Below are positions 1-2,911 of a stretch of DNA of 32,960 nt, one piece after another. A program made the position numbers and the translations under genes. How positions within the stretch are numbered: the stretch's first letter is position 1; each line of letters starts with the position of its first letter. The DNA comes from Methanobrevibacter sp. (GTDB lineage: Archaea; Methanobacteriota; Methanobacteria; Methanobacteriales; Methanobacteriaceae). The notes beneath the pieces are model-generated. The model searched no databases. It was not told the origin of the DNA and saw only the letters and a list, made by a program, of their open reading frames with translations. Where the stretch lies: assembly GCF_017447225.1 (NCBI RefSeq), contig NZ_JAFSNZ010000110.1, forward strand, positions 1 through 32,960. The letters run 5' to 3'.

Positions 1-81
1 AAGATAAATTTCTTACTTCCTCCGCTGACCTTGTAATGTCAAAGTTATTGTCATTAACTTCTTTCAAATTTCTTATCATTA

Positions 82-531
82 TTAAATCTCCAAAATTTTA
101 ATTGAATTAGTTGGGCACTCATCTTTACATAGCTGACAACCACAACATTGTACGGAGTTTATATGTGATTTCAATGATTCTAACTTAATAGCTTTCATTA
201 AACACACATTTACACATAAGCCGCAACCAATACAGGAATCTTCAATAATTGCTTCATAGTTTTTTTCTCGGCAAATATTCACAATTTTTCGACTCTGTTC
301 CGGTTCATCAAATACCGCATTGGTCATTATTAAAAAATCCCTGGGAGTTAACTCAGTGATAGTCCTTGCAACATCAATTGAATTCCAGGACAAGTTCCTG
401 CCATTCAAATAATGAGATACAGTTGATCTATCAATACCTAACTCATCAGCAATTGCCTGGTGACTCACACCAGCTTCTTTTAATTTAACCGCAGCCAGAT
501 ATTTCAAACCAGATGCAATATGCTTCGGCAT
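82..531 (-). CDS. Helix-turn-helix / 2[4Fe-4S] ferredoxin fusion, putative redox-sensing regulator
   Basis: The 149-residue protein has an N-terminal helix-turn-helix at about residues 13-43, in a region reading AIADELGIDRSTVSHYLNG. Its C-terminus is a bacterial-type ferredoxin with two complete CxxCxxCxxxC motifs: C100, C103, C106, C110 and C129, C132, C135, C139 (followed by Pro). I infer a transcription factor whose DNA binding responds to the Fe-S clusters (redox, oxygen or iron). The ATG at 531 has a GGTGG Shine-Dalgarno just upstream. It is divergent from mobB-moaA, and a 19-bp palindrome lies between its TATA-like sequence and its start, which suggests autoregulation. I do not recognise a named family; a ferredoxin with an incidental HTH is the alternative, but the HTH match is good. 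Confidence 0.82.
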   Translation of the reverse strand: MPKHIASGLKYLAAVKLKEAGVSHQAIADELGIDRSTVSHYLNGRNLSWNSIDVARTITELTPRDFLIMTNAVFDEPEQSRKIVNICREKNYEAIIEDSCIGCGLCVNVCLMKAIKLESLKSHINSVQCCGCQLCKDECPTNSIKILEI

Positions 532-541
532 TTAAACCACC

Positions 542-560
542 ATGTGTAATGATAACACAT
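542..560. promoter_or_regulatory. 19-bp palindromic operator candidate at the regulator's own promoter
   Basis: The sequence is ATGTGTAATGATAACACAT. Arms ATGTGT and ACACAT are perfect inverted repeats around a 7-nt centre. It begins 11 bp before the regulator's ATG and lies about 25 nt downstream of its TATA-like sequence, so a bound protein would cover the probable transcription start. It aligns base for base with the palindrome at 866-884. Confidence 0.65.
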
Positions 561-619
561 ATGTTTATCTATATAAATATATTTGTCTACTAGATTTAAG
601 TCGAAAGTAATATATATAA

Positions 620-638
620 CTGTGGGAATACTACACAA
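620..638. promoter_or_regulatory. Degenerate third copy of the 19-bp operator
   Basis: The sequence is CTGTGGGAATACTACACAA. Its right half, TACTACACA, is identical to the right half of the perfect site at 866-884, and its left half keeps TGTG. It lies upstream of the regulator's TATA-like region. It could be a weak or half site; by itself it would not be convincing. Confidence 0.4.
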
Positions 639-865
639 AAAATTTTAGTATAAGAAAGTAAAATAAGTATTTAATAATAATTCAGAATAAAAATTATTAT
701 TTTATAAAAATAAACAATATTAATTTTTTATTCAATAAATAAACATCAGTTATCAATATGTAAATAGGTTTATATCGGGTGTTTAAGCAATAATTGTAAT
801 AAAAATTATCTAAAAAATATTACAAAATGGCCAAAAAATGGGTAAAATCTTTAGGTTTGCCAAAA

Positions 866-884
866 ATGTGTAGTTACTACACAT
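866..884. promoter_or_regulatory. Perfect 19-bp palindromic operator candidate upstream of mobB-moaA
   Basis: The sequence is ATGTGTAGTTACTACACAT, with perfect 8-bp arms around TTA. It is 57 bp upstream of the mobB start, next to the AT-rich stretch that probably holds the TATA box. It shares outer ATGTGTA and ACACAT and total length with the site at 542-560. The placement suits a repressor or activator of the molybdopterin genes, probably the adjacent HTH-ferredoxin protein (inference). Confidence 0.65.
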
Positions 885-941
885 ATGAATATTTTAATAA
901 TTGAAAATACATATATTTATATAATAATAGGGGGATTTTAA

Positions 942-1976
942 GTGAAAATCGTATCAATTGTTGGGAGAAAGAACACGGGTAAGACATCGCTGAGCGTAAA
1001 AGTTATCAGGGAACTTACAAAAAGAGGATATAACGTTGCATCAGTGAAACATTCCCATCACTCCATAGAAATGGATAAGGAAAATACCGACACATGGAAA
1101 CATAAACAGGCCGGAGCGAATTTGGTCGTAGGTGTTGGATCAACCACATTTTTCAATTCAAGAGAAGAACATGACCTAAACAGAATATTATATCTGCTCA
1201 AGCACTTCGATGATTTTGATTTTGTAATAATAGAAGGATATAAAACATACAATTATCCTAAAATAGCAACTTCCCCTGAAGTTGTTGATGAATATACAAT
1301 TAAAGAAGTCAATTCATTTGAAATAACTCCAGAGGGAGTTAGTGAATTAGCTGATTTGATTGAACAGAGAGGACATGATATCATAGACACTTTATTTGCA
1401 AATAACTGCGGGTTTAATAACGGGGAAGTTATTGCAAAAGAAATTCGTGAAGGAAAACTTACAGTTGAAGAGTTGGACAAAGTACACAGTTATCTGTCAA
1501 TCGATAACAAGGTCGTGGGCATGAACAGATTCGTTAGCGATTACTTGAAAAAGAGCGTGTTGGGAATAATAAGCACATTGAACCTGGAAGACTATGGTGT
1601 TGAAGATATTGATAAAATTGAAGTTATTATAAACAAAAACATTGAAATCCCGAATTGCGAATATCAGAAATGCGACATTATAATCAACAATGACGAAATT
1701 GAGATAAGTAACCGTGAAAAGGAAATTATCTCAAATTCAGTAAAAGCTATGATTAACTCCATAAAGACCAAAGGCGAAATAAAAAAGATTACAGTTGAAG
1801 TCACAGATATTGAAAATAATGAACTGGTTAATTCACCAATCCATCTTAAAACAAACGATAATGCTGTTGAAATTAATGAATTCACACAGGGAATCATTAA
1901 AGAAACAATCTATGCAATCATAAAAAGCGTTTATGATGATGAAATAAAAGAATTTAAAATAGATGTGGAAGTATGA
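942..1976 (+). CDS. mobB: MobB-like molybdopterin-guanine dinucleotide biosynthesis GTPase with C-terminal extension
   Basis: The N-terminal 150 or so residues are MobB-like: a P-loop GRKNTGKTS at 8-16 and the IIEGYK motif near residue 100. MobB is a GTP-binding partner of MobA in adding GMP to molybdopterin, making the bis-MGD-type cofactor that FdhA uses. Typical MobB is about 160-170 residues, whereas this protein has 344; the extra 180 residues are unrecognised and alternate charged and hydrophobic segments. The start is GTG with GGGGGA 6 nt upstream. The stop overlaps the moaA start by 4 nt, so the two are translationally coupled. The N-terminal call is firm; the tail's role is unknown. 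Confidence 0.85.
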
Positions 1977-2911
1977 TTATGAGCGAAAGAGTAGTAAAAG
2001 ACAAATTTGACAGGCCGATACTTTCACTTAGGATTACCCTAACTAACAGATGCAATGTTAACTGCATTTACTGCCATCATGACGGCATGAGATCATCTAA
2101 AAATGAAATGACCCCTGATGAGATTTACAGAATCTGTAAAATAGCCAAAAGAATTGGAGTAAGGAAGATAAGATTATCTGGTGGAGAGCCGTTAATCAGA
2201 AAAGAAATTGTTGAAATTGTGTCAAAAATAAACAGTATCGGATTCAATGACATTTCAATAACTACAAATGGTATATTGCTTGAAAAATATGCAAAAGACT
2301 TGAAAGAGGCAGGTCTTGACAGGGTAAACGTTAGTCTGGACACTTTAAATCCCGAAACTTATCAGTTCATTACAAAAAAAGATTATCTTGATGCTGCCAA
2401 AAAAGGTATTCTTAAAAGTGTTGAAGTAGGCCTATATCCTGTTAAAATCAATATGGTCATCATGAAAGACATTAATGAACATGAAATAAAGGACATGTTC
2501 AACTTCTGTAAGGATAATGATATGGTGCTTCAACTGATTGAACTGATTGAAAGTGAAAACTGTGACGACGATAAATTCTCACAGGAATACCACTATAAAT
2601 TGGATATGGTTGAAGAAAGATTATCCGATATAGCTGATGAGATAAAAGAACGTGAATTTATGCAAGGCCGTAAAAAATATTACATTAATGGTGGAGAAAT
2701 CGAAGTAGTTAAACCTGTCGATAACTCTAAATTCTGTGCAAATTGTACCAGATTGAGGGTAACTCCAGACGGCAAGATAAAACCATGCCTGCTTAGAAAC
2801 GATAATCTCGTTGACATTATCACAGACATCAGAAACAATGAAAGTGATGAAAAATTAGAAGAGATCTTTTTAAAAGGTATTGACAAACGTGAACCGTTCA
2901 ATACTGAATAA
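1973..2911 (+). CDS. moaA: GTP 3',8-cyclase MoaA, radical SAM enzyme of molybdopterin synthesis
   Basis: MoaA rearranges GTP to 3',8-cyclo-7,8-dihydro-GTP, the first step of molybdopterin synthesis. The SAM-binding cluster motif CNVNCIYC gives C27, C31 and C34, and SGGEP at 69-73 is the SAM-binding GGE motif. The second cluster, which binds GTP, is C255-x2-C258-x13-C272. Length (312) is normal for archaeal MoaA. It lacks the C-terminal double glycine of bacterial and human MoaA and ends EPFNTE. Two close ATGs (1973 and 1979) are possible starts; the first overlaps mobB by 4 nt. It supplies cofactor for the adjacent formate dehydrogenase. Confidence 0.93.

Follow-up and report, generated by a model that had tools for sequence, protein, structure and literature searches.

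FwdH, a helix-turn-helix protein with a ferredoxin domain, as a probable local regulator of the formylmethanofuran dehydrogenase operon in Methanobacteria

The window analysed here, 32,960 nucleotides from a Methanobrevibacter sp. (contig NZ_JAFSNZ010000110.1), contains near its beginning a gene whose product joins a helix-turn-helix (HTH) to a ferredoxin domain. This gene is the first of the operon encoding formylmethanofuran dehydrogenase, which catalyses the first step in making methane from CO2. Gene context, protein domains and conserved promoter palindromes suggest that the product, FwdH, is probably a local transcription regulator of the fwd operon acting through three sites (A, B and D), with negative autoregulation and perhaps with its ferredoxin domain as sensor. 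The features concerned are the following.

1–81, minus strand: contig end; the window opens 81 nt past the stop codon of the regulator gene, and the fwdF start codon lies at 79–77.
82–531, minus strand: regulator gene, 149 aa, N-terminal Cro/C1-type HTH and C-terminal dicluster [4Fe-4S] ferredoxin (Pfam, orthologues and operon position).
537–541, minus strand: ribosome-binding site (RBS) of the regulator, GGTGG, read from the sequence; GGTG is conserved in the footprint.
542–560 (core 543–559), minus strand: site B, palindrome adjoining the regulator's RBS, core TGTGTAATGATAACACA.
609–618, minus strand: putative TATA box of the regulator-fwd operon promoter (TATATA 4 bp past site A in relatives).
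620–638 (core 621–637), minus strand: site A, palindrome just 5' of the fwd-operon TATA box, core TGTGGGAATACTACACA.
866–884, no strand assigned: site D, perfect palindrome ATGTGTAGTTACTACACAT, about 60 bp 5' of mobB and separated from site A by 246 bp.
942–1976, plus strand: mobB, which opens the divergent mobB-moaA unit (Pfam, NCBIfam), putatively controlled from site D in this genus.
1973–2911, plus strand: moaA (GTP 3',8-cyclase), overlapping mobB by 4 nt (NCBIfam TIGR02668, 392.7 bits against a cut-off of 325.25).

The place of the regulator gene at the head of a reg-fwdF-G-D-B-A-C operon was established from relatives and from the genome's own contigs. In relatives (L005), the regulator is followed by fwdF, fwdG, fwdD, fwdB, fwdA and fwdC, with fwdF beginning at the regulator's end. 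Contig C28 (L163), on which fwdF-G-D-B-A-C lie with fwdF matched from position 63 of L163, begins with 141 nt identical to the reversed first 141 nt of the window. In Methanothermobacter-type genomes (f3/g19; this label, like Methanosphaera-type for g12, was inferred from gene order and gene content), the order is reg-F-G-D-A-C-B, which equals that of the published Methanothermobacter operon fwdHFGDACB, MTH1553-1559 (PMC3087415), and the regulator is therefore FwdH. Methanothermobacter FwdH resembles the window protein in its first position, in the equal gene order and in an identity of about 57–58% (Methanothermobacter-type genomes), but differs in having been described as part of an enzyme: PMC3087415 counts it within the tungsten enzyme (FwdA-DFGH), which the same paper describes as constitutive. 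A regulatory role or binding site for FwdH was not found in the literature searched, a search that did not extend to most subscription papers or to the 1996 fwd operon paper, so that the HTH of FwdH may have been noted in print before.

Pfam and invariant cysteines confirmed the HTH and the two complete [4Fe-4S] motifs that the initial annotation had read in this protein. The HTH scored above curated Pfam cut-offs (PF01381, 25.4 bits against 23; PF13384, 25.6 against 24.6), and its recognition helix is RSTVSHYLNGRN, in which R35, S36, T37, S39, H40, Y41, G44 and N46 are invariant among 104 distinct regulator proteins. The two CxxCxxCxxxC motifs (C100/103/106/110 and C129/132/135/139) are likewise invariant in 104/104 of these proteins. 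An AF2 model showed a helical HTH domain with pLDDT of 75–94 across residues 1–90, the ferredoxin half not being resolved in the model, while Foldseek with the regulator returned weak fold matches, mostly XRE regulators and none at E <= 0.001.

The perfect palindrome claimed at 866–884 is present and is the sole perfect one with arms of at least 9 in the whole window. By itself it is not significant, because Markov-shuffled windows contain a mean of 0.56 such palindromes each. Its reported partner at 542–560 is indeed of equal length, one mismatch away from TGTGTA-N5-TACACA; it had been placed over the regulator's start site, but the ATG occupies 531–529 and the palindrome adjoins the GGTGG at 537–541. 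The weaker copy reported at 620–638 was also recovered, with two mismatches from the same motif, site A being weak in its own genome (core matches 10/12). A pair of sites with at most one mismatch within 350 bp appeared in 0/100 shuffled windows, and the repeated motif and the conservation of the sites are not due to chance. At the fdhC promoter we found no site, as had been stated; the only other window matches with at most two mismatches, at 2218 and 12031, are intragenic.

A search of relatives, proposed in the initial annotation, showed that the sites are kept 5' of regulator orthologues throughout the class, and that in this genus and a neighbouring one they also occur 5' of mobB. In nearly all of 108 distinct promoters, site A occupies −104 to −109 before the regulator ATG, and in 107 of them site B is found at −27 to −31, with a spacing between the two of 78 bp in 75 promoters and of 77–80 bp in 107. 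Shuffled sequences seldom match the score of this A/B footprint. Core half-site conservation across 31 lineage representatives reached 96% for A and 91% for B, compared with 49% upstream and 67% between the sites. The right half of site B, ACACAT, is near-invariant in the 108 promoters, and its left half is degenerate in several lineages. Given that TATATA starts 4 bp past site A in most of the 31 representatives, we infer that site A overlaps the expected BRE and that site B is positioned downstream of the expected transcription start, between it and the RBS.

With site A over the BRE and site B after the transcription start, repression is the preferred reading, a preference over activation that is drawn from site positions only. 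FwdH could instead serve as an activator that recruits TFB/TBP from site A (and from site D for mobB), site B then providing feedback repression; the location of A immediately 5' of the TATA box and of D just 5' of the mobB promoter would suit such a role, these being positions that archaeal activators use. However, the placing of site B downstream of the expected transcription start in nearly all lineages and the overlap of site A with the expected BRE count against an activator, and we regard activation as somewhat unlikely. A different proposal for site B is that of an RNA hairpin covering the RBS rather than a DNA operator, as it folds beside GGUG and reaches a z of −3.28 in one Methanothermobacter-type leader. 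However, z is about −1.7 to −2 elsewhere and no hairpin forms in g9, though the right half is retained there, and sites A and D carry the same motif upstream of promoters, all of which makes such an RNA role highly improbable. A search of Rfam with the first 3 kb of the window gave a chance-level match only.

We searched 40 genomes for exact sites, permitting R/Y at the inner base and using the reversed pattern as a control. All exact sites in 11 same-genus genomes (12/12) were located at the regulator locus, as were 32 of 46 across 35 regulator-bearing genomes, leaving 14 elsewhere. Six of these 14 come from a single conserved leader of a methyltransferase gene; with the reversed pattern as control, 5 sites were found. 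A cut-off of two mismatches was uninformative, the window's own genome having 65 sites against 89 for the control. A wider regulon was considered and rejected, since off-locus exact sites are few and near the control level except for the methyltransferase leader, which looks unrelated. That leader, GGGGGTGATGTGTGT-N5-ACACACAA, is conserved 5' of a methyltransferase gene in two lineages (L167, L168 and L170, around 3001), and on the opposite strand of L170 a nadA riboswitch family match was seen at E 0.001, sub-threshold (below gathering).

The near confinement of the exact site to FwdH's own locus fits a local regulator and bears on a further possibility, namely that FwdH serves Fwd structurally or in electron transfer and that the palindromes are bound by another transcription factor. 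Co-operonic location with fwd, the 2[4Fe-4S] domain and the published count of FwdA-DFGH (PMC3087415) are consistent with such a part. By contrast, an HTH with an invariant recognition helix argues against it, and among PDB entries, in which solved Fwd complexes are represented, no chain of those complexes includes FwdH and no chain at all matches its HTH half, the only matches being to the ferredoxin domain, though absence from models is not proof. Together with the site distribution, these points make an enzyme part very unlikely.

The distance from D to A is 244–260 bp in several genera, including those where mobB is not divergent, and in g9 site D occurs in two copies, 280–306 bp from A; some genera lack site D. 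At divergent loci of this genus, the D–A distance has an sd of 2.5 bp and that from D to the mobB start an sd of 8.8 bp, so that D is no less an element of the fwd promoter than of mobB. The spacer from D to A holds little conserved sequence in this genus. Helical phasing between D and A was considered, but although the lengths cluster at about 246 and 256–258, lengths of 250, 281 and 305 also occur, and we make no claim of phasing. A site 5' of mobB is found in most same-genus genomes and in one neighbouring genus, and no site was detected at mobB in g6, g8, g9 and other lineages tested; elsewhere in the class it is the fwd promoter that has the site and mobB that lacks it. The mobB-moaA unit, named as target in the initial annotation, is thus a candidate target in this genus and a neighbouring one; the probable main target is not molybdopterin synthesis but the regulator's own operon, fwdFGDBAC, which was missed because the contig ends there.

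Several further elements were observed around these loci. On the regulator-facing flank of site D (window 820–866), a second conserved element, GGCAAACCTAAA, is recurrent in the genus and is g9-like. In g9 loci (L134, L136, L140 and L143), a conserved stretch, GTTTGGCCTAAAAATTT ... TTACATATTGGAGATATAATTT, comes after the paired D sites in the region roughly −385 to −290 ahead of the regulator. A second fwdF and a 63-aa ferredoxin lie between mobB and the regulator at L018 4348–5568 and at similar loci (L024), and in some relatives the second fwdF (NCBIfam FwdF, above cut-off) is accompanied by an extra exact site next to mobB.

Regulator orthologues were found in 112 of 152 genomes of class Methanobacteria, full length and in single copy in nearly all, and in 13/13 genomes outside the window's family. 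The phylum-level genome sample consisted of Methanobacteria only, and the regulator's absence elsewhere rests on a pattern-based contig scan. The Methanosphaera-type genomes (g12), several of them closed, lack the regulator, fwdF, an above-cut-off MoaA and any site-like sequence 5' of fwdG. They retain fwdGDBAC, and at L164–L166 and L179–L182 the fwd operon is kept in this form without fwdF, regulator or moaA. Because the loss of regulator and fwdF may have been one deletion, we take the joint loss in Methanosphaera-type genomes as supporting evidence and not as proof. Incomplete metagenome bins in which regulator and moaA are both missing were left uncounted because the genes are linked.

That the regulator is gone exactly in the genus that lost moaA yet kept fwdB, together with the site at mobB-moaA in this genus, would fit a FwdH that senses tungsten/molybdenum or the pterin cofactor rather than Fe-S or redox and so couples the enzyme to cofactor supply. 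However, neither Pfam nor NCBIfam revealed a known oxyanion-binding or pterin domain in FwdH, sites at mobB do not extend beyond this genus and a neighbouring one, and PMC3087415 presents the tungsten enzyme as constitutive, which together leave cofactor sensing unlikely. As the signal, we prefer Fe-S supply or the redox state of ferredoxin to tungsten or molybdenum because of the complete ferredoxin domain, the [4Fe-4S]-rich enzyme and, again, that constitutive description. The invariant cluster cysteines suggest that the regulator may sense redox or iron.

In the mechanism we propose, a FwdH dimer would bind TGTGT-N7-ACACA palindromes, blocking TBP/TFB when on site A and promoter escape when on site B, and both blocks would lead FwdH to repress its own operon. 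From about 246 bp away, site D might contribute long-range cooperation and, in this genus, could bring mobB-moaA, and with it pterin cofactor synthesis, under FwdH control too. As the least certain step, the ferredoxin domain would act as the sensor, its two [4Fe-4S] clusters reporting either on cluster supply or on how reduced or oxidised the low-potential ferredoxin pool is, the pool that drives the formylmethanofuran dehydrogenase reaction. Since the tungsten enzyme has been called constitutive (PMC3087415), regulation by FwdH is probably homeostatic rather than on/off. A broader and more tentative proposal, which we consider possible yet short of likely, is that FwdH might be a class-wide sensor of the ferredoxin pool or of cluster supply that sets CO2 entry, with two operators, joined in many genera by a third at a distance of about 250 bp.

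To our knowledge, control of the first, energy-demanding step of CO2 methanogenesis is poorly understood. If methanogens of gut and rumen, and thermophilic ones, do have a dedicated regulator in FwdH, its exact operator and built-in ferredoxin would make that control directly testable in genetically tractable species. It would also correct the gene name fwdH, under which a likely transcription factor has been counted among enzyme subunits.

A known counterpart is Tfx of Methanothermobacter, a DNA-binding protein encoded beside fmdECB that binds downstream of its promoter (PMC3087415); the same paper names Tfx alone as a regulator, for the molybdenum enzyme. FwdH resembles Tfx in being a DNA-binding-type protein encoded next to a formylmethanofuran dehydrogenase operon, but it has no Tfx-family match (Pfam, E up to 0.001), includes a ferredoxin domain and is encoded in the tungsten-type operon. 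With the Cro/C1 (XRE) autoregulators lambda repressor and C.Esp1396I it shares the HTH type, palindromes flanking its own promoter and weak fold matches, whereas FwdH is fused to a dicluster ferredoxin and faces an archaeal TATA/BRE promoter. FNR, IscR/Rrf2, SoxR and WhiB are HTH or DNA-binding proteins whose cluster could sense iron or redox, as that of FwdH might, each having one cluster in a fold of its own. Among the 13 Pfam families found, none was an FNR, IscR (Rrf2) or WhiB domain; FwdH, by contrast with those proteins, couples a Cro/C1 HTH to a complete ferredoxin with two [4Fe-4S] clusters.
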